From a virus, in the IMG/VR virus record IMGVR_UViG_3300040960_000697, positions 1-22,463 of that record: a stretch of DNA of 22,463 nt. One strand, 5' to 3'. A program made the translations under genes and the position numbers. A model generated the notes under the pieces. That model made no database searches. It worked only from the letters and a program-made list of their open reading frames with translations, and was not told the DNA's origin. How positions within the stretch are numbered: position 1 is the stretch's first letter; every line of letters starts with the position of its first letter. Below are positions 1-22,463 of this stretch, in pieces.

Positions 1-72
1 GACGTTACTAGCGAAGGAGAAAGAATACAAATTAATATAGGCATCGAGCCGGACGAAGATAATGAGGAGTAA
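1..72 (+). CDS. Probable small terminase subunit, C-terminal end (partial)
   Basis: Open from the window edge in frame 1 to TAA at 70-72; only 23 residues are visible. The visible tail is acidic and polar, with an alternating Ile/Asn stretch and a final run of Asp and Glu. The identification is positional: the large terminase follows within about 130 bp, and the small subunit, which recognises phage DNA for packaging, is usually encoded just upstream. Nothing in the 23 residues proves it. The stop overlaps the start of the next ORF by 11 bases. Confidence 0.45.
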   Translation, partial: DVTSEGERIQINIGIEPDEDNEE

Positions 73-211
73 ATTATTAGAAGAAAATAGAAGAAAGAGA
101 AAGGAGTTTAGAACTAAGGTTAGTGCTATGCCTTTCGAGATTAGGTACACTACTTCGTGTAGATACGTAGGTGCTAAATTTAGAAGGACTCGTACTTATG
201 GTGAAGAATGA
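62..211 (+). CDS. Small basic hypothetical protein (49 aa)
   Basis: An ATG at 62 inside the end of the preceding gene opens a 49-codon frame ending in TGA at 209-211, which overlaps the large terminase start by 14 bases. Such nested overlaps are the rule in this window. The product is strongly basic, rich in Arg and Lys at both ends, with one Cys in the middle and no membrane segment. I recognise no family. Sitting between the probable terS and terL, it could be a packaging accessory or nucleic-acid-binding protein, but that is inference. The main support is tight packing and the lack of any other frame covering 73-197. Confidence 0.5.
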   Translation: MRSKLLEENRRKRKEFRTKVSAMPFEIRYTTSCRYVGAKFRRTRTYGEE

Positions 212-1517
212 CATAAACTTAACTAAGAAACAAGCATTAGCGTTTAAATACCTAAATGACAAGGAGACTATAGAGGTGTTATACGGTGGGAGTGCCGGAG
301 GGGGTAAGTCCTTCTTCGGTGTTCTTTGGTTAATACATAATTGTATAAAATATCCGGGTACTAGATGGTTAATGGGACGTTCTAAATTAGATGCTTTAAA
401 GAAAACCACCCTTAACTCTTTCTTTGACGTTACCGGAATGTTAGGTATTGACTCGGAGTATAATTATAACGCTAACGAGAAAACTATAACTTTTAAAAAT
501 AAATCTCAGATAGTTCTAAAGGATTTGTTTCTATATCCTTCAGACCCTAACTTCGATAGTTTAGGTTCTCTTGAGATTACTGGCGCTATGATAGACGAGG
601 CTAACCAAGTGGTAGAAAAAGCTAAGAATATTGTAGTATCAAGGATTCGTTATAAGTTAAATGAGTATAATTTAACACCTAAGCTATTAATGACTTGTAA
701 CCCTGCTAAGAATTGGGTTTTTACTTCATTCTTTAAACCTAGCGTAGATAACTGTTTACCTAAGCATAGAAAGTTTATCCAAGCTTTAGCAACAGATAAT
801 AAGCACTTACACCCTTCCTATATAGAATCTTTAAAAAGGTTAGATGAAGCTTCTAAACAGAGGCTTTTATATGGTAATTGGCAGTATGATGATGATTTAG
901 CTAAACTATTTCCTTTTGAAAATATAGTAGACGCTTATACTAATGAGTTTGTAACTGAAGGAGAAAAGTATATAACTGCGGATATAGCTCGTTTTGGTAA
1001 TGATAGTACCGTTATAGCTTTATGGAACGGTTGGAGATTAGAGAGGGTTATTAAGCTTGATAAATACGATACAGTCCAAACATCACAAGAAATTAGAAAG
1101 TTAGCTACGGAAAACTATATTCCTATGAGTAGGGTTATAGCTGATGCTGACGGAATTGGAGGAGGAGTCGTAGACCAATTAAGATGCAAGAGCTTTGTAA
1201 ATAACTCGACTCCGGTTAAGGTTGAAGGGTCTAAGCAAAACTTTAGTAATTTAAAAAGTCAATGCTATTTTCATTTAGCTGAGAAGTTTAAAAAGAAAGA
1301 GGTTTATTTAATAGATAGCACTTTTAAAGAACAGTTAAACGAAGAGTTATCTTTAATCCGTAGAAAAGATATGGATAAAGATGTTAAATGGGCGGTAGAA
1401 GGTAAAGAGACTATTAAAACTATGTTAGGTCGCTCCCCAGATATTGCAGACACCGTAATGATGCGTAGCTATTTCGACCTTGTAGGCTCTAAATCTTGGA
1501 TAGACGATTTAATCTAA
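198..1517 (+). CDS. terL: Terminase large subunit
   Basis: ATPase-nuclease motor that pumps phage DNA into the prohead and cuts it. From the ATG at 198 the protein has 439 residues, a normal length. Walker A is GGSAGGGKS at residues 30-38, Walker B ends in D133-E134 within GAMIDEAN, and the coupling motif TCNP lies at 166-169. The C-terminal RNase H-like nuclease shows acidic metal ligands at D262 (ITADIARFGND), D316/D318 (IADADGIGGG) and D415/D418 (SPDIADTV). The frame is open from a GTG at 171, but the ATG at 198, preceded by AGAAGGA about ten bases upstream, is a more natural start; residues before it add nothing family-like. The order of motifs makes the call secure. Confidence 0.95.
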   Translation: MVKNDINLTKKQALAFKYLNDKETIEVLYGGSAGGGKSFFGVLWLIHNCIKYPGTRWLMGRSKLDALKKTTLNSFFDVTGMLGIDSEYNYNANEKTITFKNKSQIVLKDLFLYPSDPNFDSLGSLEITGAMIDEANQVVEKAKNIVVSRIRYKLNEYNLTPKLLMTCNPAKNWVFTSFFKPSVDNCLPKHRKFIQALATDNKHLHPSYIESLKRLDEASKQRLLYGNWQYDDDLAKLFPFENIVDAYTNEFVTEGEKYITADIARFGNDSTVIALWNGWRLERVIKLDKYDTVQTSQEIRKLATENYIPMSRVIADADGIGGGVVDQLRCKSFVNNSTPVKVEGSKQNFSNLKSQCYFHLAEKFKKKEVYLIDSTFKEQLNEELSLIRRKDMDKDVKWAVEGKETIKTMLGRSPDIADTVMMRSYFDLVGSKSWIDDLI

Positions 1518-1643
1518 TAAAATTAATCACGCTGAAAATAAGGGAGTTAGAAATTAATTATTGTCCCGAAAATTGACATTATTTGTGACACTAATTAAGA
1601 AAATATCTAAAAACTTAAATAGTGGAAGATTATGAGTAAAAAC

Positions 1644-1703
1644 TGTATGATAAACGATACAAAACAAGCTAAAAAGCGTGTTAATGTATTATAAACGATA
1701 CAA
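1644..1703. promoter_or_regulatory. Two operator-like dyads, TGTAT-N8-ATACA
   Basis: TGTATGATAAACGATACAA at 1644-1662 and TGTATTATAAACGATACAA at 1685-1703 differ by one base in 19. Each contains a perfect inverted repeat, TGTAT and ATACA, separated by eight bases. The copies start 41 bp apart, close to four helical turns, so dimers bound at both would face the same side. This looks like a pair of binding sites for a dimeric regulator; the protein is unknown. Confidence 0.45.
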
Positions 1704-1753
1704 TTTAAAATAGGTTAAAAGACGTTCATTCATAACTTTATTTTTTAATGTTT

Positions 1754-1781
1754 AGAGAGGTTTAACCAGCCTCTCTTTTTT
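1754..1781 (+). terminator. Intrinsic terminator downstream of terL
   Basis: A 7-bp stem, AGAGAGG (1754-1760) with CCTCTCT (1770-1776), a 9-base loop and a following run of T. It lies 237 bp after the terL stop, leaving a long 3' untranslated stretch that includes the two operator-like dyads. Confidence 0.8.
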
Positions 1782-1903
1782 ATTAAGTCTGATAGGTAAA
1801 ACCAACAAAAAACTGTTTTAAACTATGCAAAAATAATTACGGTATACCTCTATAAAATTTGAATAAATATAAAACATCATAAAAAGCTAACTAATTAAAT
1901 AAC

Positions 1904-2020
1904 AGTTAGTTTAATCCTTTCGAACCCTTTCAAACCCTTTCAAAGCCTTTAAAACCCTTTCGAACTATTACGTAAGTCTTTCTAAATTAAATTAAAGTTT
2001 AAGTTAAAGCTTAATACAAG
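1904..2020. repeat. Two-copy intergenic element, copy 1
   Basis: Shares four blocks in the same order with 14192-14290: AGTTAGT, 10-bp repeats of the CCTTTCAAAG type, a 26-bp block (1971-1996) beginning CGTAA and ending in TTTCTAAATTAAATTAAA (23 of 26 matches), and AGCTTAATACAAG (2008-2020, one mismatch). It is non-coding in both places. Function unknown; a regulatory or replication role is possible. Confidence 0.6.
1916..1965. repeat. Five tandem 10-bp repeats (CCTTTCRAAC)
   Basis: The units are CCTTTCGAAC, CCTTTCAAAC, CCTTTCAAAG, CCTTTAAAAC and CCTTTCGAAC, without gaps. A 10-bp period close to one DNA turn suggests protein binding on one face or bendable DNA. It is not CRISPR-like because there are no spacers. 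Confidence 0.75.
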
Positions 2021-2030
2021 TTTAAGTTAA
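1995..2030. repeat. Direct repeat AAGTTTAAGTTAA
   Basis: The 13-mer occurs at 1995-2007 and again at 2018-2030, 23 bp apart start to start, bracketing the AGCTTAATACAAG block. It is very AT-rich and adjoins the 10-bp array. Confidence 0.5.
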
Positions 2031-2233
2031 GAGTAATAGTCGCGTGACACACAAGCACGGACTAACGTCCTACAAACTACAATTTCTATTTTAAGCGATT
2101 TAAGACGTTTTCTAAGACTAAGTTAATAGATAATACTATTTTAAGTTTAAAGTTCGTTAGAACGTCTAAAAAGTGCCTTAAAAAGGATTTATTTAATTAG
2201 GAATAAGTCAGAAAAGTTTAATATCTTTAAGTA

Positions 2234-2473
2234 ATGAATATTAACGATACTATACGAGAGACTCAATATAGCGCTACAGTAGAGCAGCTTACAAGCGTTG
2301 TAGAGTGGTATATTAGGGAAAAGAAAGGAGTAGATGTTAAGATTGATATGTACTCCGATTCTATTACAGGTCGTAATAGGATAAACCCTGTATTGTTTAA
2401 GGTCTACGTTAATAAGCTATTTAAAGCTTACGTTAAAGCATTAGAGTATTATAAAAACGATTATAAAAAGTGA
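2234..2473 (+). CDS. Hypothetical protein (79 aa)
   Basis: First gene after the long non-coding region. The 79-residue product appears largely helical, with regularly spaced hydrophobic residues (VEWYIREKKGVDV, then VLFKVYVNKLFKAYVKALEYY) and a Lys-rich end; no membrane segment or known motif is seen. Its stop TGA (2471-2473) overlaps a GTG start of the next gene, so the two are probably translationally coupled. The ATG at 2234 has an A/T-rich leader and no strong Shine-Dalgarno site, like other genes here. I do not recognise the family. Confidence 0.65.
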   Translation: MNINDTIRETQYSATVEQLTSVVEWYIREKKGVDVKIDMYSDSITGRNRINPVLFKVYVNKLFKAYVKALEYYKNDYKK

Positions 2474-4815: not shown

Positions 4816-4816
4816 T

Positions 4817-6331: not shown

Positions 6332-8340
6332 TGGCTACACCTTTAAATATATACGAGTTAGATAAGTTTAACCCTTACGACTTCTTTATTCCTCTTACGT
6401 TTTCTATAAACGACTTTAGAGATATATCGACTCGTAATGGAACTTATAGCAAGACGGTTAAGATACCGGGAACTAAAAAGAACGATTCTTTATTAGGACA
6501 TAGTTTTAAGATTAACGCGGAGGGGTTCTTCGATAGGAATAAGAGAGTACCGGCTATAATAGAAAAGGACGGTATTAGATACTTAGAGGGTTCTATGCAG
6601 CTTAAGAGCGTAGATATTAGCGACGGTAAGAACTGGGTTTATAATATTATCCTTTACTCTGACTTATCGGATTGGGGGTCTTTAATCAAGGACAAGAATA
6701 TAAGAGATTTAAACTACGATACTCTTACTTACAACCCTACTAACGTAGAGGCTTCTTGGTCTTATAACGGTAGAGATAACGGTTATACCTTCCCTCTTAT
6801 TAATTACGGTTATTTTAACGGCTTAAATGAAGGGTCTTTAATACAAGTAGAAGAGTTTTTACCTTCCGTATTCGTTTACGACGTATTTAGAAAGATTTTT
6901 AGAAATATAGGTTATACTTTAAAAGAAGGTTTCTTCGCTCGTCAGGAGTTTAGAGACTTAATCTTACCGGCTATTAATACCGAGTTAGCTACTTCTTCGG
7001 ATACCTTAAACGAGAATAGAGTAGAGGTTAGTAGTTTTTACGGTTTGTACTTTCCTAGAAGGTTAGAAAACCAAGACACTAACTTACTATTTACAGATAC
7101 AGACTTCGACGGGGGTTCTAATATGCTGTCTAGTACTTACTACGTAGCACCTTTCTTAGACGGTACTTATACTGGTACGGCTTCGGTTATACTTAAGAAC
7201 TCGCAGATAATATCTAATAATATAGTATTAAGGGTACAAGAAGTTACTCCGGCTCTATCGTTTGTAAGCGAGTTAGCTTCGGAGACTATAAGCCTACCTT
7301 CTAACTCTAATAACGTAGAATTATCGACATCTTTCGATGAGACTGCTATAGCTCAGGGTAATTACGTTAGAGTAGTAGTTCATTCGGATAATCCTAACCC
7401 TAAGATAGACGTAGGTTCTAATAACTTAAATATTACTCCGGTTTATGCGCCTTTATCTAACGGAGAAGAGATAAGTATTAAGGACTTCGTTTACGATATG
7501 AAGCAAGACTCGTTTATTAAGTACTTCGTTCAGTTATTTAACTTAGTACATATTACGGACGATAGAGCTAAGACGGTAGAGTTTTTCCATAGAGACGACT
7601 TTTATAAGTCTATAGAAGAAGCAGAGGATTGGAGTGAGAAGATAGACGTATCTAAGAAGCAAACTATAGAGCAGTTAGATGAAAAGTTAAACAGAGATTT
7701 AGTCTTTGAGTACGAAGAAGACGATAACGACCAGTTATTAAAGAACTTTGAGGATATTTGGAAAACTAATCTTACAGACGATAGTAGACTATTAGATAAC
7801 GAATTTTTAAAAGATGAGAAAAAAGTCGCAAGTGTTCGCTTCTCTGGAAGTGTGGGAAGTGGTACTATTATCCAGACAGCAGGTGGAAGTCTATATCTGC
7901 CTCAACTGATTAATAACTTTAAATCTACCGGAAAAGAAATAGAATTAAATCCTAGATTATTAATCTACGAAGGTTTAAAAGACGGAAACTTTACATTTGA
8001 GTCTGTGTTAAAAACTCAATATCCTTCAGCGTACTTTATTAAAAGGGTTTCTAGTCCTTTCGACGTATCTTTAAGTTTTAAGGATTTAAACGATGTAGAT
8101 AAGTCTATTCAAGAAAACGATAGAGGGTTAGTTAGTAGATATTACGGAGAACAGATAAGGCAATTTAATAACGCTAGACTTTACACAGCGTATATGAGAT
8201 TAACCGGAGTAGATATAGTAAACTTAGATTTTAGAAAGCCTAAGCTAATTAATGGAGTTTATTATTATCTTAATAAGGTAGAAGATTATAAAGCCGGAGT
8301 TTTTGAGTCGGTTAAGTGTGAATTTATACAAATAGTTTAA
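6331..8340 (+). CDS. Minor tail / baseplate hub-like protein (669 aa)
   Basis: The start has the pattern FTFSINDFRDISTRNGTYSKTVKIPGTKKNDSLLG (in segments around residues 22-56), which I associate with Bacteroidota phage tail proteins; later parts hold a beta-rich LEGSMQLKSVDISDG region, a helical middle (IKDFVYDMKQDSFIKYFVQLFNLVH) and a C-terminal VSRYYGEQIRQFNNARLYTAYM segment. The order resembles a baseplate hub or tail-associated protein acting with the preceding gene at the tail tip. A patch near 7815-7905 uses CGC, CTG and GTG codons that are rare elsewhere in this window, which may mark exchange. No lysozyme or peptidase motif is visible. Confidence 0.6.
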   Translation: MATPLNIYELDKFNPYDFFIPLTFSINDFRDISTRNGTYSKTVKIPGTKKNDSLLGHSFKINAEGFFDRNKRVPAIIEKDGIRYLEGSMQLKSVDISDGKNWVYNIILYSDLSDWGSLIKDKNIRDLNYDTLTYNPTNVEASWSYNGRDNGYTFPLINYGYFNGLNEGSLIQVEEFLPSVFVYDVFRKIFRNIGYTLKEGFFARQEFRDLILPAINTELATSSDTLNENRVEVSSFYGLYFPRRLENQDTNLLFTDTDFDGGSNMLSSTYYVAPFLDGTYTGTASVILKNSQIISNNIVLRVQEVTPALSFVSELASETISLPSNSNNVELSTSFDETAIAQGNYVRVVVHSDNPNPKIDVGSNNLNITPVYAPLSNGEEISIKDFVYDMKQDSFIKYFVQLFNLVHITDDRAKTVEFFHRDDFYKSIEEAEDWSEKIDVSKKQTIEQLDEKLNRDLVFEYEEDDNDQLLKNFEDIWKTNLTDDSRLLDNEFLKDEKKVASVRFSGSVGSGTIIQTAGGSLYLPQLINNFKSTGKEIELNPRLLIYEGLKDGNFTFESVLKTQYPSAYFIKRVSSPFDVSLSFKDLNDVDKSIQENDRGLVSRYYGEQIRQFNNARLYTAYMRLTGVDIVNLDFRKPKLINGVYYYLNKVEDYKAGVFESVKCEFIQIV

Positions 8341-11237
8341 TGGCTAAAGAGGAAATATTTTTCGGTATTAATATAGATACCGGTAAAGCGATAAAGGACT
8401 TTGGAACCTTAAAAGCAAGGACTAAAGCTTTAAAAAAGGAATTAGACGGTACTAAGGTAGGTACTAAGAGATTCGAACAGCTTAGAAGCGAGATTACTAA
8501 GAACCAAGCTACTATAAGAAGGTTTAATAGAGAGTTAAGACAAACTAAGTCTTTAGCTACTAGAGTAGGTCAAGGAGTTACTACGGCTTTTAAAAGAGTA
8601 GGAGGTGCTTTAGCCGGTGCTTTTGCTATCGGAGGAGTCTTTCAAGCTTTTAAAGGGGCAGTAGGAGTAATTATAGACTTTGAGCAAGCTATTAGGGATG
8701 TAGGCGCGGTTTCAGGTGCTACAGACGAAGAATTACAAGGTTTAGAGAAATCAGCTAGAGAATTAGCAAAGGTTTCGGTATTTACGGCTGAACAAGTAGC
8801 CGGACTACAGTTAGAACTTGCTAAATTAGGTTTTACTTCGAAGGAGATACAGCAATCATCATCAGGTATTATAAACCTATCTACAGCTTTTAGGATAGAC
8901 TTAGCTCAGGCTGCAACGGTATCTGCTTCTACTCTTAGAGCTTTTGGTTTAGACGCTTCAGAAATGACTAGAGTAACCGATGTAATGGCTGACTCTTTCG
9001 CATCATCTGCTTTAGATATAGAGAAGTTCCAAGAGTCTATGAAGTTAGTAGCTCCTTCTGCTAAATCTACCGGAAGGACTTTAGAGGAGACTACAGCTTT
9101 ATTAAGTGTTTTAGCTAATAACGGTATATCTGGAAGTATAGCAGGAACGCAGTTAAGAAGAGTCTTTATAGAGCTTAACAAAGAAGGTTTAACCTTAGAA
9201 GAGGCTATGGGTGAAGTAGCTAATTCTACTGATAAATTAGGTAAGGCTACCGAGTTAGTAGGAGTTAGAGGTGCTACAGCTTTACAGATATTCGCGGACC
9301 AATCGGATAGCTTAGAAAAGCTTAGAGAGGATTATAGCGATACTGCTAATACAGCTCAAGAGTTAGCGGATAAATCGGGAGATACTTTACAAGGTGCTTT
9401 AAAGCGTTTAAGGTCGGCTTACGAAGAGTTAATACTTAAGTTTAGCGGTTCTAAAGGTACTTTAAGAGATATTATAGAAAGTATATCAGACTTTATTAAC
9501 TCTATCGACGAGGACGATGTAAAAACCTTTACTAACGCGGTTAAGAATCTATTTAAGGTTATAGCTATAGGGGTTAAGACTTGGGTAGCTTATAAGGCTA
9601 CTATAATCGCTACTAACTTAGCTACTAAGCTTTATACGGCTTCTACTGTTACAGCTAGGATTGCTTCTATCGCTTTCTCTGGAGGGTTAAAGAACGTAAC
9701 TAGAGCTATGAAACTCTTAAACCTTACTATTAAATCTAATCCTATCGGGTTATTAGTAGGAGGTATTACTACTTTAATATCTGTTATGTCCTTATGGGGT
9801 GATGAAGAGGAAGAGGTAGAGAAAAGAGTTAAAAGAACTAATAAAGCTTTAATAGAGCGTAAAACGATAGTAGACGAGTTAACTAACGTAACTCCGGAAT
9901 TAAAGAAAGCTTTTGAGGAATTGGAAGACGGGTTAGATTGGTTAGACCCTACGGAGGCTCAAATCGAAAGATTTAGAGAATTAAATAAGGCTGCAATGGA
10001 TGCTTTTTTAGGTTCTGCTGAAGCTTATAGGGAAGGTTTAGGTAGTTTAGATTTATTCTCTTTACAGACCGACGCTAAAGACTTAATCGATAAGATTAAA
10101 GACTTAGAAGAGCAAGTATCTGTATTCGATGCCGGAGAAGAAAAAGATAACGCTATAGGTTTCTTAAAGGTCTTAAAAGGATTATTAAGAGACGTTAATA
10201 ATGAAATATCTAGTAGAACCGGAGAAGAGGACGATTCATTAGGGTTAATAGGAGATTTAGAGGAAAAATTAAAGAACTTAGGAAAGAATTTAAAGAAGGC
10301 TAAAACGGTAGACGAGATTATGGCTATCGGAGAAGAGATTAAAAACGTAAATAAACAGTTAGCTTTTTATAAAGAACTTTCTAAAGGTATTAGCGACGCG
10401 GAAGGATTTAACGAAGATGAAGACCCATTCTTTAATACATTCGTAGACGATACTAAGGATATAAACGAAGACCCAGATATAGAATTTGCAAGATTAAAAA
10501 GAGCTGAACTTTTAAAACAAGCCGGAGAGACTACGGACGGATTAATAAGAGAAGAAGAGAGGTTAACGGAGGCTAAAATGAGAGAAGCTCAGGTTAGAAA
10601 CGAAATTACTGGATTCTTAATTAATCAGACTCAGGACTTAATAGGAAGTACTATAGCTTTCTTACAGAGAGACGAAGATGCAAGAAAGGCTAACGCTGAA
10701 AAGATTAAAGCTTGGGCGAAGGCTAAGGTATTAGTAGATTTAGCTTCTCAGATTCAGAATATCTGGACTACTAACTCTTCTATTACTCAACCGGGTAACG
10801 CATTTACCTTCGGAGCTACCGGTACTACGGCTAGTATTATTCAGACGGGTATAGCTACGGCTAACGCTTTAGCACAAGTTGCAACTATTCAGAGTCAGAA
10901 ATTCGCTAAAGGGGGTATTTTAAGTGGACCAAGCCACGCTCAAGGAGGTATTAAAACACCTTTCGGAGAATTAGAAGGCGGAGAAGCGGTTATTAACAAG
11001 AAATCTACTAAGAAATATGGAGGTATTCTATCTGCTATTAATGAAGCCGGAGGAGGTAAAAAGTTCGCTAGAGGTGGTATACTACCTAATCCTTCGACTA
11101 TATCGACTCCTAACTCTTTAAATAGTGATATATTAAAAGCTATTAATAGTATAGATATTAAGCCTACGGTATCCGTAGTAGAGATTAACGAGGCTCAGAC
11201 TAGAATATCAGAAATTGAAAACAACTCAACTTTATAA
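8340..11237 (+). CDS. Tail tape measure protein (965 aa)
   Basis: Longest gene here. An N-terminal coiled coil (residues about 20-72) leads to a Gly/Ala hydrophobic stretch (LAGAFAIGGVFQAF, about 91-104) and a domain typical of TP901-type tape measure proteins: FEQAIRDVGAVSGATDEEL, then SARELAKVSVFTAEQVAGL and an ISGSIAGTQLRRVF segment. A second hydrophobic stretch occurs near LLVGGITTLISVMSLW. The C-terminus is Gly-rich with FAKGGILSGPSHAQGGI and FARGGILPNPS repeats, common in this family. Tape measures set tail length at about 0.15 nm per residue, which would predict a tail near 145 nm. The start ATG overlaps the previous stop. Confidence 0.92.
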   Translation: MAKEEIFFGINIDTGKAIKDFGTLKARTKALKKELDGTKVGTKRFEQLRSEITKNQATIRRFNRELRQTKSLATRVGQGVTTAFKRVGGALAGAFAIGGVFQAFKGAVGVIIDFEQAIRDVGAVSGATDEELQGLEKSARELAKVSVFTAEQVAGLQLELAKLGFTSKEIQQSSSGIINLSTAFRIDLAQAATVSASTLRAFGLDASEMTRVTDVMADSFASSALDIEKFQESMKLVAPSAKSTGRTLEETTALLSVLANNGISGSIAGTQLRRVFIELNKEGLTLEEAMGEVANSTDKLGKATELVGVRGATALQIFADQSDSLEKLREDYSDTANTAQELADKSGDTLQGALKRLRSAYEELILKFSGSKGTLRDIIESISDFINSIDEDDVKTFTNAVKNLFKVIAIGVKTWVAYKATIIATNLATKLYTASTVTARIASIAFSGGLKNVTRAMKLLNLTIKSNPIGLLVGGITTLISVMSLWGDEEEEVEKRVKRTNKALIERKTIVDELTNVTPELKKAFEELEDGLDWLDPTEAQIERFRELNKAAMDAFLGSAEAYREGLGSLDLFSLQTDAKDLIDKIKDLEEQVSVFDAGEEKDNAIGFLKVLKGLLRDVNNEISSRTGEEDDSLGLIGDLEEKLKNLGKNLKKAKTVDEIMAIGEEIKNVNKQLAFYKELSKGISDAEGFNEDEDPFFNTFVDDTKDINEDPDIEFARLKRAELLKQAGETTDGLIREEERLTEAKMREAQVRNEITGFLINQTQDLIGSTIAFLQRDEDARKANAEKIKAWAKAKVLVDLASQIQNIWTTNSSITQPGNAFTFGATGTTASIIQTGIATANALAQVATIQSQKFAKGGILSGPSHAQGGIKTPFGELEGGEAVINKKSTKKYGGILSAINEAGGGKKFARGGILPNPSTISTPNSLNSDILKAINSIDIKPTVSVVEINEAQTRISEIENNSTL

Positions 11238-11533: not shown

Positions 11534-12625
11534 ATGTGGTATAAAGCACAAAAGATTAATAATCAAGTAGAGGTAGATTTATTCGACGAGATTGGAGGAT
11601 GGGGAATCTACGCTAAAGAACTTAAGGACGAACTATCTAATATGATAGGTAATCCTACTGAAGAGGTTTTAGTTAATATTAACTCTCCGGGTGGTTCTGT
11701 TTTCGAAGGAATTGAGATTTACAATTATTTAAAAGGTTTACCTAATAAAGTAACTGTTAAGATTAATTCTTTAGCCGCAAGTATCGCTACTGTTATCGCT
11801 TTAGGTGCTGATGAATTAGAGATTAGCGAGAGTGCTTTCTTTATGATTCATAACCCTTGGACAATGGCAGGAGGAGAAGCAGAGGATTTAAGAAAACAAG
11901 CGGACGTTTTAGATAAGATTAAAGAGACTATCTTAAGTATCTACGAAAAGAACTCTAATCTATCAAGAGAGCGTTTAACTGCTTTAATGAATGAAGAGAC
12001 TTGGTTAACTGGTGCAGAGGCGTTAGAGTACGGTTTTGCTACTAGATTAACGGAAGGTCTAGCGGTAGCTGCAAAAGCTACTACTGGTTTAGTTAAGAAT
12101 TTTAAAAATGTACCTAATAATTTAGAAATGGCAGAAGAATTAAAAGTAGAGGAAACTACTGAAGAGGTAACTGTTGAAGCTAATTTAGAAGAGGCTACGG
12201 AAGAAACTTTAGAGGAGACTCAAGAGGTAACTAACGAAGCTACTGAAGAAGAAGTTGAGGAAGTTATCGAAGAAAAAGAAGAAGGAATCTTAGCTAAGGT
12301 TAAGGCTTTCTTATCTAACAAGTTAGAAAACGCTTCTAACGAACTTAATGAGCGTTACGCTGAAGTATCTAATGAGGTTAAGGCTTTAAAAGAAGTTAAA
12401 GCAGATTTAGAGTCTGAGAACAAAGACTTAAAAGAAACTTTAGAAGAGACTTTCGAAATGCTTAAGAAATCTCAAGAGCTTAACGAATCTTTTAAGAACG
12501 AAGTAAAAGACTTAAACGAAAAGTTAAAAGAAGAGGTAGGAGAAGATTTAACTCCGGTAGTAGAGCCAACTATCGAGAATAAAAAAGAAACGGCTAAAGA
12601 CGTATTTAGAAACTTAAAAAAATAA
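11534..12625 (+). CDS. ClpP-type prohead protease with scaffold-like C-terminal tail (363 aa)
   Basis: Residues 1-175 follow the ClpP/S14 fold used by phage head-maturation proteases: VNINSPGGSVFEGIEIYNYL, then the nucleophile S83 in SLAASIATVIALGAD, H106 in FFMIHNPW, and the segment EETWLTGAEALEYGFA. The third catalytic position, 49 residues after the His as in E. coli ClpP (H122 to D171), falls on E155, a Glu rather than Asp. Residues from about 200 on are extremely Glu-rich and then form a long coiled coil (LNERYAEVSNEVKALKEV and onward), resembling a scaffold. Such fused protease-scaffold proteins assemble and then clear the prohead core. It precedes the capsid gene by 6 bp. Confidence 0.88.
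   Translation: MWYKAQKINNQVEVDLFDEIGGWGIYAKELKDELSNMIGNPTEEVLVNINSPGGSVFEGIEIYNYLKGLPNKVTVKINSLAASIATVIALGADELEISESAFFMIHNPWTMAGGEAEDLRKQADVLDKIKETILSIYEKNSNLSRERLTALMNEETWLTGAEALEYGFATRLTEGLAVAAKATTGLVKNFKNVPNNLEMAEELKVEETTEEVTVEANLEEATEETLEETQEVTNEATEEEVEEVIEEKEEGILAKVKAFLSNKLENASNELNERYAEVSNEVKALKEVKADLESENKDLKETLEETFEMLKKSQELNESFKNEVKDLNEKLKEEVGEDLTPVVEPTIENKKETAKDVFRNLKK
12128..12625 (+). CDS. Possible internal-start scaffold protein (165 aa)
   Basis: An in-frame ATG at codon 199 of the protease gene would give a 165-residue protein made only of the acidic and coiled-coil part, beginning MAEELKVEETTEEV. In lambda, Nu3 scaffold is made in this way from within gene C. The AAATGG context resembles other starts here, but no ribosome site proves use. 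The boundary between protease and scaffold coincides with this codon, which is the main support. Confidence 0.35.
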   Translation: MAEELKVEETTEEVTVEANLEEATEETLEETQEVTNEATEEEVEEVIEEKEEGILAKVKAFLSNKLENASNELNERYAEVSNEVKALKEVKADLESENKDLKETLEETFEMLKKSQELNESFKNEVKDLNEKLKEEVGEDLTPVVEPTIENKKETAKDVFRNLKK

Positions 12626-12631: not shown

Positions 12632-13582
12632 ATGGCATTTGATTTAACAGCGTTATCAGATTATACTACTGAACACGCATCTACATTTTTTGCTAAGTCT
12701 GTAATGAAGTCAAGACTGGCAGGATTAGCTACTGTGTATACTGGATTCAAACCGGGTGCGCACAAATTACCAGACGTAGAACACGACTACGACTTATTAC
12801 AAAACGGAGAAGCTTGTGGATTCAACGCTTCAGGTGATTTAAACATCGAGCAGAGAGACATTACTGTAGAGTCTTTAAAGATTAACACTTCTTACTGTGT
12901 AAGAGACTTAGAAAAGAAGTTTACTCGTCAAATTATGCCTTCTGGGCAGGATTACGAAGGGTTAGCACCTTTAGAGGCTGAGTTAATGGCTTCTTTAGAT
13001 AGAGCTATCGGTAAGATGATGGAGCAAGTTTTAGTTAAGGGTAATAAAGCTACTGCGCCTAATGCTTTAGGTTCTTTAGACCACTTAAACGGACTTAACA
13101 AAGTAATCGCAGACGAGATTGCAAGTGGAGGTATTCCAGCTGCTCAAGCTTTGACTGCAGGTGCTTTAACTGAGTCTAACATCGTTGAGAAAGTAGAAGA
13201 CTTATACGACGCTTTACCAGTAGACGCTTACTCTACTATCCAAGACGAAAGATGGTACGTGTTAATGGGAGACGATAAAGTTAAAATGTACGAGAGAGGA
13301 TACAGAGACAGTAAAGGTACTGTAGTTTATAACCAAGGATTCGAGAAGAGATTCGTAGACGGTACTAACATCGCTATCGAAGGTATCCCGGGATTAAACG
13401 GAACAGATTACTTAGTACTTATCAAAGAGTCTGATTTAGTATTAGCTGTAGACGTTGAAGGAGAAGAAATGGAATTAAAAGTAGGAATGGACCAATATAT
13501 GGAGAATATCTGGGTTAAAGGTAGATTCGCTGCAGGGTTCCAAATTCATTTCCCTTCTCAAGTTGTAGTATCTAACTACTAG
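12632..13582 (+). CDS. Major capsid protein (316 aa)
   Basis: Located directly after the protease/scaffold gene, of typical length for an HK97-fold shell protein. The sequence has a long N-terminal segment, then a central helix (LAPLEAELMASLDRAIGKMMEQVLVKG in segments around residues 111-137, resembling the spine helix), a Gly/Ala-rich loop, WYVLMGDDKVKMYERG and a C-terminal strand region ending FQIHFPSQVVVSNY. Codon use differs from neighbours: more AAC, ATC and GAC, as expected for a very highly expressed gene. The leader is TAATAAAAAATGG, an A-rich start typical of strongly translated genes in Flavobacteriia. A terminator follows at 13603-13624. Confidence 0.85.
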   Translation: MAFDLTALSDYTTEHASTFFAKSVMKSRLAGLATVYTGFKPGAHKLPDVEHDYDLLQNGEACGFNASGDLNIEQRDITVESLKINTSYCVRDLEKKFTRQIMPSGQDYEGLAPLEAELMASLDRAIGKMMEQVLVKGNKATAPNALGSLDHLNGLNKVIADEIASGGIPAAQALTAGALTESNIVEKVEDLYDALPVDAYSTIQDERWYVLMGDDKVKMYERGYRDSKGTVVYNQGFEKRFVDGTNIAIEGIPGLNGTDYLVLIKESDLVLAVDVEGEEMELKVGMDQYMENIWVKGRFAAGFQIHFPSQVVVSNY

Positions 13583-14336: not shown

Positions 14337-14359
14337 ATCTTTATTAAAACGATTTAAAA

Positions 14360-14605
14360 ATGGAAGAGAAAAAGACTAAAAGAAGTTATAAGAGACGTTC
14401 TAAGGAACTTTCTAACGAAAACGAGGTAAACTTACCTAAAGAAGAAGAAAAAGCCTTAAAACCTAAGAAATGGGTGTTTAAGAACGTAAATAGAAAGATT
14501 CTTTTAGGTAGTGCTGTAATTAGTAACTACGATTTAGAGAATAATCAGAAATTAGCAGAGATTTTAATCGAAAAAGGATTAGGTGACCTTTTATGCTTAG
14601 AGTAA
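14360..14605 (+). CDS. Small basic hypothetical protein (81 aa)
   Basis: The N-terminal half is highly charged (KKTKRSYKRRSKEL and an acidic-basic mix) and probably disordered; the C-terminal half is more compact: WVFKNVNRKILLGSAVISNY, then a helix NQKLAEILIEKGLGDLL. Small proteins with an NRKILLxS-type core and such a helix occur near tail genes of related phages, in my recollection, without known function. The A-rich leader (TTTAAAAATGG) suggests good translation, and it is the first gene after the terminator at 14309. It overlaps the next gene by 13 bases. Confidence 0.65.
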   Translation: MEEKKTKRSYKRRSKELSNENEVNLPKEEEKALKPKKWVFKNVNRKILLGSAVISNYDLENNQKLAEILIEKGLGDLLCLE

Positions 14606-15270
14606 GACAGATTTACTACCAGAGCTTACAGAAAATTGTTAATATGGAGCGAACTAAAGACTTTGTTCCATATTTCAATCCTCTATCGGACGAAAACTTA
14701 GAAAGCGGTGTTATTAGACGCTTATTCGAGTCAGAGGATTATAGGCATCACGAATACTTCGGGGTAGTAAGCCATAAGTTTTATAAGAAACTTAAAAAAG
14801 ACTCTAACTACGTTAAACGAACTATAGAAAACGACGAAGATAAAGCCGACGTTTATAGCTTTTTTCCTAAACTAGATAAGGTTAATTTAGTCTTACAAGG
14901 GGATAACTGGCATCCTTTATTTTCTGATATCTATAGACTTTTAGCAGATAAATTAGATTGGGGTATAGATTTTAGCGATAAGAGTTTAAAAATGGAACCT
15001 ATTTACTCTAATCATTGGATAGCTTCGGTAGATACCTTCGAAGAGTTCTGTTTAGACTTTCTTATACCTGTAATAGATACTATAAACGAATCTAAAGTAC
15101 TTAGAGATTTATGTAACCAAGACGCTAACTATATCTCTAGAGAAAAGTTATCGCCTGAGTTATGCGAGAAGGTATTCGATAGACCTTATTACACTTATCA
15201 TCCGTTTATATTAGAGCGTTTATTCCCTATATTCTGCTATCTTAGAAATAAAACCGTTAAGCATATATGA
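14593..15270 (+). CDS. Uncharacterised protein in glycan cassette (225 aa)
   Basis: Opens with RVRQIYYQSLQ and DFVPYFNP, then HHEYFGVVSHKFYKKL, a DVYSFFPKLDKVNLVLQGDNWHP segment and PIYSNHWIA, ending in YYTYHPFILERLFPIF. I recall similar proteins among glycan-synthesis genes in Bacteroidota and their phages, and the arrangement could be a glycosyltransferase-related fold, but no clear DXD or nucleotide-sugar motif is visible. It overlaps the following glycosyltransferase by 4 bases (ATGA), so the two are coupled. The linkage to glycan work is mostly contextual. Confidence 0.6.
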   Translation: MLRVRQIYYQSLQKIVNMERTKDFVPYFNPLSDENLESGVIRRLFESEDYRHHEYFGVVSHKFYKKLKKDSNYVKRTIENDEDKADVYSFFPKLDKVNLVLQGDNWHPLFSDIYRLLADKLDWGIDFSDKSLKMEPIYSNHWIASVDTFEEFCLDFLIPVIDTINESKVLRDLCNQDANYISREKLSPELCEKVFDRPYYTYHPFILERLFPIFCYLRNKTVKHI

Positions 15271-15965
15271 AATTTTTAGTACTTGTACCGATTTATAGAC
15301 GTTACGACGTTTTAAGGCTTTTTAACGAAGGTTTAGAAGTTTTAAAGGGTAAAGGCTATAATATAGAAGTTCTAGCCGTAGGAGACTTAAAAGACGAACC
15401 TATAGCTAAAGAATTAGGTTATAGATACGTTACTCATCGTAATATCTTAGGAGAAAAGCTTAATAAGGCTCTTAAAGTAGCTAAGAATATAGATTTCGAT
15501 GCGATGTTAATGCTAGGTAGTGACGATACTTTAAACGCTGAGATTTTAGACTTCTATATCGACTCATTTAACAAGGGTTATAAGTTCGTAGGGTTCTTAG
15601 ATTGCTACTTCTACGACTTAGAAAAACGTAATATGATTAAATGGAACGGCTATATAGGACATAGACAAGGAGAACCTATAGGCGCTTGGCGTTGCTTTAG
15701 AAGAGATTTAATAGAAGAACTTAACTACGAGCTTTGGGCGAATCAACACCACTCTATAGACTATACGATGTGGGAGAAGATTAAAAAAAGACCCGATTTA
15801 CTTAAGGTTAAATTATCCGGTAATCAGTTTATTTGCGACTTAAAAACTTCGGAAAATGTAACTAAATTTCGTAAATTCGATAACTCGGTAATAGTTAACT
15901 CTTTAGACGGGTTAAACTTATTAGAAGCAAACTTTAAAAACAAGATATTAGACTATGGAAAATAA
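15267..15965 (+). CDS. GT-A type glycosyltransferase (232 aa)
   Basis: The start LVLVPIYRRYDVLRLF (about residues 4-19) is a family 2-like opening for nucleotide-sugar binding. After NILGEKLNKALKVA comes a strand and the acidic motif GSDDT (84-88), in the position of the DXD metal site, then GEPIGAWRCFRRDLIEEL (135-152), like an acceptor-side segment. It would transfer a sugar from a nucleotide donor; acceptor unknown. No membrane helix is visible, so it is probably cytosolic. The stop overlaps the next gene by 11 bases. Placement among virion genes suggests modification of the phage particle or of the host surface during late infection. Confidence 0.75.
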   Translation: MKFLVLVPIYRRYDVLRLFNEGLEVLKGKGYNIEVLAVGDLKDEPIAKELGYRYVTHRNILGEKLNKALKVAKNIDFDAMLMLGSDDTLNAEILDFYIDSFNKGYKFVGFLDCYFYDLEKRNMIKWNGYIGHRQGEPIGAWRCFRRDLIEELNYELWANQHHSIDYTMWEKIKKRPDLLKVKLSGNQFICDLKTSENVTKFRKFDNSVIVNSLDGLNLLEANFKNKILDYGK

Positions 15966-16545
15966 CATTCACGAAACCGCTATAATAGGCGAAAACGTAG
16001 TAATAGGTAAAGGTAATACTATTGGTCCTTACTCAGTTATTCACGACGGAGTAACGATAGGGGATAACAACGAGATAGGAAGTTTTGTAGTTATCGGAGG
16101 TAGAGGAGAGATTAGAAAGGCTAACGAGTTTAACGGTAGGATTCATATAGGATGTAATAACCTTATAAACCATCACGTAACGATAGACAAATCTATTGAA
16201 GGAGATACTGTTATTAGAAACAATAACTTTATAATGACTAAAGCGCATATAGGTCACGATGTTAAGATTATTGATAATGTAACTATATCTTCTGGTGCTA
16301 ATATAGGAGGTCACGTTTGGATAAAATCACACGCTAACGTAGGTCTAAACGCAGAGATACATCAGAGATTAGTGATAGGCAACGGTGCTATGATTGGTAT
16401 GGGTAGTTCTATCACTAAAGACGTTTACCCATTTATTAAGGTGGTAGGAGTTAATAGAATAATCGGTTATAACGATAAAAAGATTAAAGAGCTTGATTTA
16501 TCTATGAGAGAGGTTAGAAAACTAGGTAGAGAGTTTGGAGAATGA
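15955..16545 (+). CDS. LpxA-like left-handed beta-helix acyltransferase (196 aa)
   Basis: Hexapeptide repeats run through most of the protein (IIGENVVIGKGNTIG, VTIGDNNEIG, then later turns), the sign of a left-handed beta-helix. The likeness to LpxA (UDP-GlcNAc acyltransferase) is detailed: IHIGCNNLINHHVTI, then AHIGHD at 97-102 corresponding to AHIAHD of E. coli LpxA with its catalytic His (here H101), GGHV (H120 matching the LAGHV His) and IHQRLVIGNGAMIGMGSSITKDV matching the VHQFCIIG region. It is 196 residues against about 262, with most of the C-terminal helical domain missing. It probably acylates an amino or hydroxyl group on a nucleotide sugar; the exact substrate is unknown. Overlaps both neighbours, so it belongs to the cassette. 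Confidence 0.82.
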   Translation: MENNIHETAIIGENVVIGKGNTIGPYSVIHDGVTIGDNNEIGSFVVIGGRGEIRKANEFNGRIHIGCNNLINHHVTIDKSIEGDTVIRNNNFIMTKAHIGHDVKIIDNVTISSGANIGGHVWIKSHANVGLNAEIHQRLVIGNGAMIGMGSSITKDVYPFIKVVGVNRIIGYNDKKIKELDLSMREVRKLGREFGE

Positions 16546-17294
16546 AATTAGCAGCTTGTTATACCGTATTTAACGGAGTAGAGTTATTAGAACACGCTAT
16601 TAACTCGGTTAAGGACCACGTAGACGAAATAATAATAGGATTCCAAACCGTAAGTAATTACGGTAATGAATGTAAAGACATTTTAAAATTTATGGCTAGA
16701 TTCCCTAGCTATACTTACTTTTCTTACGAACCAGATTTAACGGTAGATTCTAAGACTAACGAAAAGAGAAAACATCAAAAGCTAATAGAATTCGCTAGGA
16801 GTAAGAATTGTACTCACTTTTTCCTATCCGCTACAGACCACTTTTACAAAGAAGATGAGATATTATACGCTATAAATGTAGTATTAACTACTGGTGTGAA
16901 AACTACTTACTCTAAGATGATTACTTACTTCAAAGAGCCTACTTTAATGTTAGAGCCTTTAGAAGAGTATTATATGCCGTTTATATGTAGTACTTCGGTT
17001 AATATGGGTAATATGTCTCCGGTATTAGTAGACCCTGCTTGTGCTTTTAAACCATTCGCACCTTATTACGTTTTTAGAGAAGATGAGGTATTAATGCACC
17101 ACTTCTCGTGGGTTAGAAAGGATATTAATAGTAAGTTAGATAACGCTGCGGCGAAAGTAAACTGGTTAGATAAAATAGACGAGTTTAAAGAGAGGTATAA
17201 TAACTTTAAGTTAGGGGATAAATTCCCGTACTACCCTAAACACAAAATAGTAGAGACAGAGGATATATTTAATTTACGTAATATCGAATTATAG
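16542..17294 (+). CDS. Glycosyltransferase-like protein (250 aa)
   Basis: Starts LAACYTVFNGVELLEHAINS and VDEIIIGFQTVSNYG, as in family 2-like transferases. EKRKHQKLIEFARSKNCTHF leads to LSATDHFY (residues 95-102), where typical relatives have a DADEFY-type metal site; here only D99 remains acidic. Later VLMHHFSWVRKDI (183-195) and a following KLDNAAAKVNWLDKI resemble a conserved acceptor-side helix of such enzymes. It is likely a sugar transferase working with the upstream genes, overlapping the acyltransferase stop (ATGA). The weakened acidic motif could mean altered metal use or loss of activity. Confidence 0.7.
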   Translation: MKLAACYTVFNGVELLEHAINSVKDHVDEIIIGFQTVSNYGNECKDILKFMARFPSYTYFSYEPDLTVDSKTNEKRKHQKLIEFARSKNCTHFFLSATDHFYKEDEILYAINVVLTTGVKTTYSKMITYFKEPTLMLEPLEEYYMPFICSTSVNMGNMSPVLVDPACAFKPFAPYYVFREDEVLMHHFSWVRKDINSKLDNAAAKVNWLDKIDEFKERYNNFKLGDKFPYYPKHKIVETEDIFNLRNIEL

Positions 17295-17319: not shown

Positions 17320-18588
17320 ATGGAAGAGAACAAGGCAAGTAATATTTTTTTCGTAAACCTTACGACTAAAAGCGTAACTCCGGACGTAGATATAAGAAAG
17401 AATAAAAAGAAAGATTACATCTACTTCGGTAAGGATAATCTTTTTCCAGATTATTTAATCGACTTAGCAGATAACTGTTCTATCCATAGAGCTTTATTAG
17501 AGACTAAGACTAAGTTTATAGCCGGAGAAGGTTTTTACTTCGAAGGAGAAGATAATCAAGTAGCTCAAGCTGAAAGGTTTTTAGAAGGATTAGATAAAGA
17601 CTTTTTAAGAAGAACGGCTATAGATATGGCTTATTTTAACGGTTTCTATTGGCAGTCTAAGTTCGAAAGAAGCGGTAACGTAGCTTACTTACGTAACGTA
17701 GATTTTTCTTACGTTAGAAGCGGTAAAATGAACGAGAACGGAGAAGTAGACAAGTATTATTTTTCTCCAGATTGGAAATTTGCCACTAAAAGAAATTCTT
17801 TTAAACCTGAGGACGAAATTTACAAGCCTAAGCCTATCGCTTCTTGGCAATCTTCGGATAGAATGTTAGTTAGAGAAAGAGGAGAATTAGTTAACGGAAT
17901 GTGTTACTCTCCGGGTAAATTATTTTACGCTGAGCCATCTTACTTAGGCGCTTTAAATTACATCGAGATATCTAACCAAATAGCTGAATTTCATAAAAAT
18001 AATTTAGATAATGGAATGGTAGGTTCGATGCATATCCATTTATTCGAGGACTTAAGCGACGGAGAAAAGAGAAGGAAGGTAGAGAAGTCTATTAATAATA
18101 AGTTTAGCGGTTCTGAGAACGCTGGTAAGGTAGTAGTAACTTGGTCTACTAATCCGGATATGAAAACGATGGTAGAATCTATACCTGTAAACGATTCTCA
18201 CGAAATGTTTACTCTACTTAACGGTAAGGTAAGCGAAGAGATTATAATGTCACATCGTACTCCTATGGCTTTAGCAGGTATTAAAGTAGCTACTGGTTTA
18301 CAATCGGAGGAGAGCTTAACTCGTGCTAATATGGAATACTATCAGAATACGGTAATTAGACCTTCTCAAGTAGTTATAGAGGAGAATTTAGATAAAGTAT
18401 TAGAGCGTAACGGTATCAGCGTTAAATCTAAGATTAAACCTCTTAAGCCTATTGATATTTTAGGTTCTGAGGAGTTAATGAGTAGAGTAATGACTATTAA
18501 CGAGATTAGGACAAGTGTTTTAGGTATCGAGGCTTTAGAAGAAGGAGGAGACGAATTTTTAAACGATAATAATAACGAGTTAGATTAA
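17320..18588 (+). CDS. Portal protein (422 aa)
   Basis: Forms the ring at one head vertex through which DNA passes. The features fit Bacteroidota-type phage portals: an N-terminal DYIYFGKDNLFPDYLIDLADN, HRALLETKTKFIAGEGF, a region around FNGFYWQSKFERSG and YLGALNYIEISNQIAEFHKNN, then GSENAGKVVVTW and SEEIIMSHRTPMALAGI before a C-terminal helix ending VVIEENLDKVL. The length of 422 is within the family range. It lies about 16 kb after terL and after the capsid gene, an uncommon position; usually it follows the terminase. The stop overlaps the spike gene's ATG (TAATG). Confidence 0.85.
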   Translation: MEENKASNIFFVNLTTKSVTPDVDIRKNKKKDYIYFGKDNLFPDYLIDLADNCSIHRALLETKTKFIAGEGFYFEGEDNQVAQAERFLEGLDKDFLRRTAIDMAYFNGFYWQSKFERSGNVAYLRNVDFSYVRSGKMNENGEVDKYYFSPDWKFATKRNSFKPEDEIYKPKPIASWQSSDRMLVRERGELVNGMCYSPGKLFYAEPSYLGALNYIEISNQIAEFHKNNLDNGMVGSMHIHLFEDLSDGEKRRKVEKSINNKFSGSENAGKVVVTWSTNPDMKTMVESIPVNDSHEMFTLLNGKVSEEIIMSHRTPMALAGIKVATGLQSEESLTRANMEYYQNTVIRPSQVVIEENLDKVLERNGISVKSKIKPLKPIDILGSEELMSRVMTINEIRTSVLGIEALEEGGDEFLNDNNNELD

Positions 18589-20357: not shown

Positions 20358-20377
20358 AATATTTAAAAAATTAAAAA

Positions 20378-20794
20378 ATGGCAATAGTAATAACAGAAGA
20401 TTGGACAATTGAATTAGGTATTGATACCGATACTGGACTAAATAAAAGGTTAGTTGTTGATACTCCAGTAATACAAGTACCACGACAAGAGGTTACAACA
20501 CCTAAAATAGTGGTTCATCTTAGAGAGCAATTATACAACGCTACAAGCGGGATAGTAGTAGAAGATAAAACAGAAGGTTATCAACTTGTAAGAGGTCAAG
20601 AGCATAAGCACTTTGATGGTTCGCAAATGCAAGAAAAAGACGATTTAGGTAATTTAGTTTTTGAAGCTGATGGGACAACTCCAGTAATGGGTAGAACTCA
20701 AGCCTATGAGCGTACTATTTATGCTTTAGAGAATGGCTTATTTAATAAGCAACAATTATTAGACGGTATTAAAGAGTACTATAAAATAGTATAA
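20378..20794 (+). CDS. Hypothetical protein downstream of spike (138 aa)
   Basis: Opens VITEDWTIELGIDTDTGL and later has VVHLREQLYNATSGIVVED and QAYERTIYALENGLFNKQQL; mostly beta then helical, with no membrane segment. Codon use resembles the preceding spike rather than the rest of the window, so the two may have moved together. By position it could be a fibre-associated or fibre-assembly protein, but I recognise no family. The A-rich leader (ATTAAAAAATGG) is a good start. A gap of 74 bp without a gene follows. Confidence 0.65.
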   Translation: MAIVITEDWTIELGIDTDTGLNKRLVVDTPVIQVPRQEVTTPKIVVHLREQLYNATSGIVVEDKTEGYQLVRGQEHKHFDGSQMQEKDDLGNLVFEADGTTPVMGRTQAYERTIYALENGLFNKQQLLDGIKEYYKIV

Positions 20795-20868
20795 CTCTTA
20801 GGCAGTAACAAGTGCTTAATAATTAGTATATTTAATAGTATAGTAATTAACACAGAAATTATTTTATA

Positions 20869-21030
20869 ATGAACGAAAACGACTTAAAAAACATCGAAGT
20901 AGTATTCGCTATTGCTAGAAAAGAATTAGCGTTAGACGAAAACCAATTATTAGAAATAATAGACTTAAAAAGAAGGCTATTTAATGAGATTAAAAACGAA
21001 GAGGAAACTAATTTAAAAGTAGAGGAGTAG
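20869..21030 (+). CDS. Small acidic hypothetical protein (53 aa)
   Basis: An open frame with ATG at 20869 and TAG at 21028-21030. The product is highly charged and probably helical: NDLKNIEVVFAIARKELALD followed by an ELxxIIDLKRRLFNEI-type segment. It fills an otherwise empty stretch, codon use (TTA, AGA, GTA) matches the genome, and it is closely followed by the next gene. The start overlaps a TATAAT-like stretch. No family recognised. Confidence 0.6.
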   Translation: MNENDLKNIEVVFAIARKELALDENQLLEIIDLKRRLFNEIKNEEETNLKVEE

Positions 21031-21044
21031 TACCTTATAGAATT

Positions 21045-21353
21045 ATGTTGGACCTAGATAGCTTATTTAAGTATATGGTAACTGGAGGGGGTGCAGTAGT
21101 TGCTTACTTCTTTAAGAGTATTCATAATGGTATTAAAGAGCAAGAGAGAAAGGTGGAGATTATGCAGATTGAGCTATCTAAATTAGAAAACAGATTAGAA
21201 CTAATTGATAATAAGACTTCGACACAAGTAGAGAGGTTAGAAGAGCTTAGTAAGATTCAGTTCGACCAACTACACATAGAAATTAACGAGTTAAAGACTT
21301 ATGTTAATTCTATTAATACTAATATTCAAGAACTAGTTAAAAGTATGTTATAA
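21045..21353 (+). CDS. Membrane-anchored coiled-coil protein, possible holin-like (102 aa)
   Basis: A short hydrophobic stretch, about residues 8-23 (FKYMVTGGGAVVAYFF), is followed by a long charged coiled coil (KEQERKVEIMQIELSKLENRLELI and onward) to the end. One membrane segment plus a coiled coil is seen in small phage membrane proteins, including some lysis proteins, but the segment is short for a holin and no endolysin lies nearby in this window, so lysis is only a possibility. The final ATAATG overlaps the next start. Confidence 0.6.
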   Translation: MLDLDSLFKYMVTGGGAVVAYFFKSIHNGIKEQERKVEIMQIELSKLENRLELIDNKTSTQVERLEELSKIQFDQLHIEINELKTYVNSINTNIQELVKSML

Positions 21354-21937
21354 TGAGCCTAGCAGAGACAAAATTAATAACGGAGCAAGAGGTTAAGAAT
21401 TGGACCGATATATCTAATAACGTTCAGAGTAGTAGTTTATCCTTTGCTATAACTATGGCTCAGGATTTATACGTAAGAACGGCTTTAGGGGAAAAGCTTT
21501 ACGAGGAGATTTTAACTCAGGTTAAGAATAATACCTTAACGGCTTTAAATACTACCTTATTAAACGGTAACGACGGACTTTTTAGAGGTATTAAGAGCGG
21601 TTTAGCCTGGTGGGTAGCTTATACGGTTTACCCTTATTTACATTCTAAGGTAAGTCCTACGGGTATTCAGTCTAAAAGTACGGACGAGGCTACTTCTATC
21701 GATAGTAGGTCGTTAGAGATTAGAAAGAACTTAGCGAAGAAGAACGCGGAGTATTTAATAGACCAGTTAATCTGCTACTTAAGAGATAACGAGAACGATT
21801 ACCCTCTATTTAGAGATTCTGACTCTTGTTGTACTAATTTAGCTTTTGACGGTTACGGTAACTCAGGTATTATCACTGACGATGAGGACCATTTAGACTA
21901 TTATAGAAGAGATAACGACGGATTTAAACCTTTGTAG
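21353..21937 (+). CDS. Head-tail adaptor-like protein (194 aa)
   Basis: A helical protein: ITEQEVKNWTDISNNV, then FAITMAQDLYVRTALGEKLYEEIL, LFRGIKSGLAWWVAYTVYPYL and a long IRKNLAKKNAEYLIDQLICYL helix. This arrangement resembles the adaptor (gp6-like) proteins that sit under the portal, and Bacteroidota structural proteins of that type. A C-terminal Cys-Cys and an acidic tail are present. It is not far downstream of the portal gene. No motif is decisive, so the role is likely but not proven. Confidence 0.6.
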   Translation: MSLAETKLITEQEVKNWTDISNNVQSSSLSFAITMAQDLYVRTALGEKLYEEILTQVKNNTLTALNTTLLNGNDGLFRGIKSGLAWWVAYTVYPYLHSKVSPTGIQSKSTDEATSIDSRSLEIRKNLAKKNAEYLIDQLICYLRDNENDYPLFRDSDSCCTNLAFDGYGNSGIITDDEDHLDYYRRDNDGFKPL

Positions 21938-21940
21938 AAT

Positions 21941-22171
21941 ATGGCTTTTGAGATAACTAATAGCGGAGGTTTTTTTAAGATAAAAAATACTATTACTAAC
22001 GAGGTAAAAGCGATAGCTAAAAACGATATTAGATTTGTTTTAAGAAATGATTTATCTATCGTTAAAGGTGCTAACTTTAGATTTGCTGTTATAAGCGATG
22101 CAAGTGAGGTTACTACGCCCTCTGCTACAGATTTAAATGATTTATTAACTAAATTAAATAACTTAACATAA
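21941..22171 (+). CDS. Small virion-like protein (76 aa)
   Basis: Beta-rich start FEITNSGGFFKIKNTIT, then NDIRFVLRNDLSIVKGANFRFAV and a C-terminal helix ATDLNDLLTKLNNL. Small proteins with this ending (T.P.A.DL..LL..L) precede fibre genes in related phages, in my recollection. The function is unknown; position between an adaptor-like gene and a probable spike fits a minor structural role. TAATG overlap with the next gene. Confidence 0.6.
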   Translation: MAFEITNSGGFFKIKNTITNEVKAIAKNDIRFVLRNDLSIVKGANFRFAVISDASEVTTPSATDLNDLLTKLNNLT

Positions 22172-22463
22172 TGGCTACAATAACGGTAGAAGGAGGGCAA
22201 TTAAAGATAGTTTACGGTAACGATATAGATACTATCCCTTTAGATGATGTAATAATGGAATCAAAAGGAGTTGATTCTGTAGTATTTAAACAATGTACCG
22301 CACCGGTGGTAGAGTTAGAAAGGAGTACTATTACTGTTCCTACTTCTACTAGTGTAGAGAATTTAATAGATAAAATAGGTATACTTGTAGACGTTAACGA
22401 TAGTGGTATAACTAACTTAACTTTCGTAGCTTCTAAAAGCGATTTACCTTCTTCTGTTGGAGG
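22171..22463 (+). CDS. Probable tail spike / fibre, N-terminus (partial)
   Basis: Open to the window end, 97 codons visible. The beginning, ITVEGGQLKIVYGNDIDTI, is a beta segment, followed by TVPTSTSVENLIDKIGILVDV. The last residues, SKSDLPSSVGG, recall the motif that opens beta-helix domains of phage spikes (DLP...GG followed by I.L..N..Y), so a second host-binding protein may begin here. The defining part lies outside the window. Confidence 0.55.
   Translation, partial: MATITVEGGQLKIVYGNDIDTIPLDDVIMESKGVDSVVFKQCTAPVVELERSTITVPTSTSVENLIDKIGILVDVNDSGITNLTFVASKSDLPSSVG

Follow-up and report, generated by a model that had tools for sequence, protein, structure and literature searches.

A tailed phage of Bacteroidota lacks three short palindromes, GATC, CATG and GGCC, throughout its structural genes. 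The absence far exceeds what chance predicts, extends through the clade to which the phage belongs, and the sites are lost and regained motif by motif among close relatives. The window, which here means the whole stretch of DNA analysed, is an entire IMG/VR record of 22,463 bases with 34.8% GC. Type II restriction is an established agent of palindrome-specific elimination, and elimination of recognition sites in dsDNA phages is reported to be complete or almost so in roughly one in ten viral genomes (Rusinov et al., 2018; PMC6286503). Of the explanations considered, selection against restriction sites alone fits all the observations, and we infer this agent with a probability of about 0.88, because only palindromes are lost, because the avoided set varies by clade, because GATC returns while CATG and GGCC stay avoided, and because complete matching restriction-modification cassettes exist in the likely host family. 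The avoidance principle has long been known, and the window family is a new and unusually clear example of it.

The window contains no GATC, against 72 copies expected from independent bases and 61 from a maximal-order Markov model. In 1000 synonymous-codon shuffles, which kept protein and codon usage in 26 genes covering 93% of the window, the count was 49.9 ± 5.6 and never fell below 32. The Poisson probability of zero copies is about 2e-22. CATG is likewise absent (17 expected by the Markov model and 26.9 by the shuffles), and so is GGCC (11 and 7.0). These are the only 4-mers missing from the window, 3 of 256, and all are palindromes; at 0 copies each, they lie below an observed/expected ratio of 0.1 beyond composition and codon usage. 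The sequence-only reading had claimed a complete absence of GATC where about 70 copies were predicted, and the count confirms that none was missed by eye. Its observation was right but understated, since the absence of CATG and GGCC had been overlooked. Its explanation, selection against a GATC-cutting enzyme of the host, is supported as far as it goes and is incomplete, as three enzymes are implied.

Codon choice agrees with these counts. Asp before C was said to be always encoded by GAC, and indeed there are 24 GAC and 0 GAT in this context, while elsewhere GAT is common (252, against 185 GAC). Ile after G is never encoded by ATC but by ATA or ATT (96 cases), and Ser after xGA is AGY in 11 of 11 cases and never TCN, so that the codon evidence against GATC holds in all three reading frames. 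The non-coding DNA of the window (1,211 bases) has no GATC either, and the 954 one-mismatch neighbours of GATC are evenly distributed over the window. For CATG, His before G is encoded by CAC 17 times and by CAT not once, and none of the 93 internal ATG triplets is preceded by C. The dipeptide Trp-Pro does not occur in the window, against 1.6 expected, which is weak but consistent with GGCC avoidance. Two other palindromes were considered as avoided sites and rejected. CTAG is low by the Markov model (51 against 128), but codon usage nearly accounts for this (50 against 62); AATT has a z of -6.2 against the shuffles, but a ratio of only 0.82 by the Markov model. CCGG is over-represented in the window relative to codon shuffles (45 against 16.3), yet it is eliminated in sister clades.

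The absence could be thought to need no nuclease at all and to reflect mutation bias, codon usage or an artefact of library or assembly, such as cutting of the DNA at GATC prior to sequencing. In an AT-rich genome like this one, composition does make GGCC and CATG modestly rare. However, 50, 27 and 7 sites are still to be expected when codons are shuffled without altering protein or codon usage, and non-palindromic neighbour words occur at normal or raised frequency (GATG, 1.46). The metagenome 3300025853 rules out a library artefact, as it gave both a contig with 39 GATC (L001) and one with none (L012). GATC is also back at a nearly blind rate in a sister that is 90% identical. An origin without nuclease selection is thus extremely improbable.

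The gene content identifies the window as the structural-gene part of a tailed phage of Bacteroidota with a genome of about 37 kb (Table 1). Its phage genes are densely packed on the plus strand. The large terminase subunit, on which the tree and the choice of relatives are based, shares 51-52% identity with its counterparts in Flavobacterium phage 11b and Cellulophaga phage phi10:1, and most of the relatives found in bacterial genomes are from Bacteroidota, at up to 57% identity. The phage comes from an aquatic source, and its host family is probably Flavobacteriaceae. A host search with the tape measure protein gave no match; a search with the terminase alignment matched only relatives of 57% identity or less, spread over many Bacteroidota genera with a few in records under other phyla, and therefore no host is assigned. 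No DNA-level match to the window was found among phage records. The stretch behind the terminase gene is AT-rich and carries CCTTTCRAA-type repeats and a terminator-like hairpin. Four genes between the capsid-side genes and the portal gene (14593-17294), among them an LpxA-like acyltransferase and two glycosyltransferase-like proteins (no Pfam match), may form a sugar cassette.

Table 1. Features of the window and of the sister phage G002 referred to in the text.
Feature	Location	Strand	Basis or content
Whole window	1..22463		0 GATC, 0 CATG, 0 GGCC
Terminase large subunit	171..1517	+	PHROG 2, 8e-36; 52% identical to Flavobacterium phage 11b
Stretch without listed gene, 716 bases	1518..2233		three sites absent here too
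Tail length tape measure protein	8340..11237	+	PHROG 1533, 1e-60
Head maturation protease	11534..12625	+	PHROG 94, 1e-69
Probable major capsid protein	12632..13582	+	position after protease; PHROG 11320 (function unassigned)
Portal protein	17320..18588	+	PHROG 11226, 5e-42
Thymidylate-synthase homologue of G002	L139 857-1636	minus	PF00303

The extent of the absence beyond the window can be judged from close relatives. The sister contig G002 has 37,650 bases and is probably complete because it carries an 80-base terminal repeat; by comparison with it, the window covers some 60% of the phage genome, and what is missing is mainly the early-gene half. One contig, L240, is 99.8% identical to the window start over 530 bases and extends 5.4 kb upstream with none of the three sites, encoding a SNF2-like helicase and a PF01555 methyltransferase. 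Another, L237, is 98.6% identical at the 3′ end of the window and extends 5.2 kb with one GATC. As this GATC lies in near-identical sequence just past the window, the elimination may not be absolute. The claim of absence covers the window, and the phage species is almost, perhaps not totally, free of GATC.

The same three sites are absent or nearly so from contigs whose terminases are 74-92% identical to that of the window, and the contigs lacking them span 10-30 kb. For example, a 30-kb contig covering both genome halves (G022) has 1 GATC of 65 expected, 0 CATG of 22 and 0 GGCC of 12, and three further members (G008, G014 and G012) have none of the three. In a terminase tree of 81 contigs, from which the terminase of L004 was excluded for an in-frame stop, the avoided set differs by clade: it is CCGG in one, GATC, GGCC, CCGG and CGCG in another, CATG, GGCC, GCGC and TCGA elsewhere, and GTAC in single contigs. 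Such switching from clade to clade is hard to square with a fixed mutational bias.

A single site has returned in the G002 lineage (L001-L003), whose terminases, at 98% identity, come closest to that of the window. Since this lineage is nested inside the avoiding clade, its tolerance of GATC is derived. The window and G002 align over 17.4 kb at 90.5% identity, and in this alignment 14 GATC are confined to G002, none is confined to the window and none is shared by the two (sign test, P = 1.2e-4). Eleven of the 14 are one base away from the window sequence and the other three are two bases away. Control palindromes are evenly split between the pair (G002/window: CCGG 14/13, CTAG 12/13, AGCT 31/37, GTAC 19/13). 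The gains expected without selection were estimated by reassigning the differences between the two sequences at random among the positions at which they differ. For G002, permutation gives 18.5 GATC, 9.4 CATG and 6.5 GGCC, against 14, 1 and 0-1 observed; for the reverse direction it gives 11.5, 9.1 and 4.6 in the window, against 0 of each, where the permutation ignores codon position and the control palindromes scatter around it up to two-fold. The CATG deficit in G002 and the zeros of the window are well beyond this scatter. Thus, in G002 GATC is back at nearly the rate of blind placement and selection on it is over, while selection against CATG and GGCC has continued in the structural half.

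Two other, independent releases are restricted to GATC. G030 has 32 GATC of 103 expected, against 1 of 19 for CATG and 1 of 25 for GGCC; two fragments, L090 and L119, together have 20 of 50, against 0 of 13 and 0 of 8. G002, G030 and L090/L119 therefore regain GATC and not CATG or GGCC, so that each site is selected separately. Loss and return motif by motif is what separate Type II enzymes predict, and it argues against mutation bias, a library artefact or any one general cause.

A different factor may lie in the slot upstream of the small terminase gene, whose content is variable across the clade. It holds a PF01555 methyltransferase with a SNF2-like helicase in L240, G022, L006 and L007, the methyltransferase in L015, and C5 and D12 methyltransferases in L005. 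In G030 it holds a TAGT glycosyltransferase (PF20691, 3e-34; L145 12362-13195), and this TET-associated enzyme suggests sugar-modified DNA in that phage. In G001 and G002 it holds a MazG-like gene and a thymidylate-synthase homologue (PF00303, 1e-71). Aligned to solved thymidylate synthases, the latter has Asp at the dUMP-binding Asn position (IGLPYDVGMYA against LGVPFNIASYA), so that this flavophage-like genome has a candidate dCMP (hydroxy)methylase. T4 gp42, a dCMP hydroxymethylase of the thymidylate-synthase fold with Asp at this same position, resembles in these respects the protein of G002, which is present in the sister only and lies beside the MazG-like gene. The predicted G002 enzyme differs from T4-type anti-restriction in that it lies outside the window and that CATG and GGCC are avoided in the G002 structural genes.

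From this slot it could be argued that phage modification genes, acting in addition to restriction, set which sites are present. Carriers of a methyltransferase would still need avoidance, while the predicted enzyme of G002 would protect all C-containing sites, after which avoidance would have decayed. The slot would then swap modification cassettes among close phages, and a hydroxymethylase import would have let one lineage, caught soon after the event, drop avoidance; this remains a tentative proposal, as does its corollary that sites abound in the imported half of the genome but are still almost lacking in the old half, a picture to which we would give rather low odds. The homologue itself with its neighbouring MazG-like gene speaks for it, as does the early half of G002, where GATC is normal (55 of 56 expected) and CATG partly tolerated (16 of 34). 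Moreover, among coliphages the share of host sites that are avoided is 2.4% for hydroxymethylase carriers and 55.8% for their relatives (PMC6286503). However, general cytosine modification should free all three sites, and the structural half of G002 remains nearly devoid of CATG and GGCC, so that the import is either very recent or unrelated to the older release of GATC. For the same reason, the hydroxymethylase is disfavoured as the sole cause of the G002 release. The G030 glycosyltransferase carrier also still avoids CATG and GGCC, L090 and L119 released GATC with no modification gene seen in those fragments, and the single origin of the hydroxymethylase in the clade offers no independent replicate. 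A role for modification in setting the sites is rather unlikely.

It is considerably less likely still that a phage-encoded nuclease, or host enzymes cutting methylated sites in the manner of DpnI, select against the sites. Methyl-dependent cutting is conceivable because phage-encoded methyltransferases occur in the clade. Against it, the window has lost three unrelated palindromes and sister clades lack different sets; the early genes that were annotated include no recognisable restriction nuclease; and the PF01555 enzyme, also present in about 78 further phage contigs whose GATC content varies (pooled observed/expected 0.40), is not tied to GATC avoidance. A phage methyltransferase as the general cause of GATC avoidance was rejected on the same ground, since the same enzyme is found in phages with and without GATC. 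The PF01555 gene (L240 3151-4170; L259-L336) is a very widely shared phage gene: at least 80 diverse viral contigs carry relatives above 80% identity, and more than 600 stretches match. Neither the D12 nor the C5 enzyme of L005 is a close copy of a methyltransferase from a DpnII, ICEA or HaeIII cassette.

Restriction by the host requires suitable enzymes, and complete cassettes are found in Flavobacteriaceae: DpnII with D12 and N6_N4 methyltransferases, ICEA with a D12 methyltransferase, and HaeIII with a C5 methyltransferase. We take the DpnII, ICEA (NlaIII-like) and HaeIII families to be the enzymes for GATC, CATG and GGCC. In 399 sampled genomes, these families score above the cut-off in 11, 4 and 16, respectively. 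Full-length DpnII and HaeIII are both present in two of the 399 (P = 0.025), neither of which has ICEA, and no genome with all three families was found in this sample. Under selection by restriction, the hosts of the phage, taken together, would carry Type II enzymes cutting all three sites. Incoming unmethylated phage DNA with a site would be cut, and mutations creating sites would be purged. Synonymous recoding is possible for every GATC and CATG context, and for GGCC except at Trp-Pro, so that the phage could stay free of sites with hardly any change to its proteins. Each site would be selected on its own: once an enzyme is no longer met, its site would return by single mutations, and the others would stay purged.

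The pattern resembles that described by Rusinov et al. (2018; PMC6286503), in which short palindromic Type II sites, including GATC, are almost completely lost. That study was built on phages with known hosts and enzymes, whereas the window phage, probably one of Flavobacteriaceae, loses three sites at once, and aligned genes of its close relatives have individual sites coming back. Phages 11b and phi10:1 likewise have Flavobacteriaceae hosts and have eliminated GGCC (observed/expected 0/22 and 1/25). In contrast to the window, they keep many GATC and CATG (43/78, 46/72; 36/133, 93/124) and avoid CGCG, and 11b also avoids CCGG. Site avoidance has so far been documented mostly as a correlation of phages with host enzymes. 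Here the aligned genes form a natural experiment, in which the same genes, about 90% identical, have released one site and still purge two. Selection can thereby be measured per site, and it can be estimated when a lineage ceased to be exposed to an enzyme. The avoided set may also serve as a restriction-enzyme fingerprint of an uncultured host. A distant relative, L035 (1-13355; IMGVR_UViG_3300030107_001403), avoids at least six palindromes together (observed/expected: AGCT 0/30, CATG 0/26, ACGT 1/29, TCGA 1/26, CTAG 1/37, GATC 2/19).
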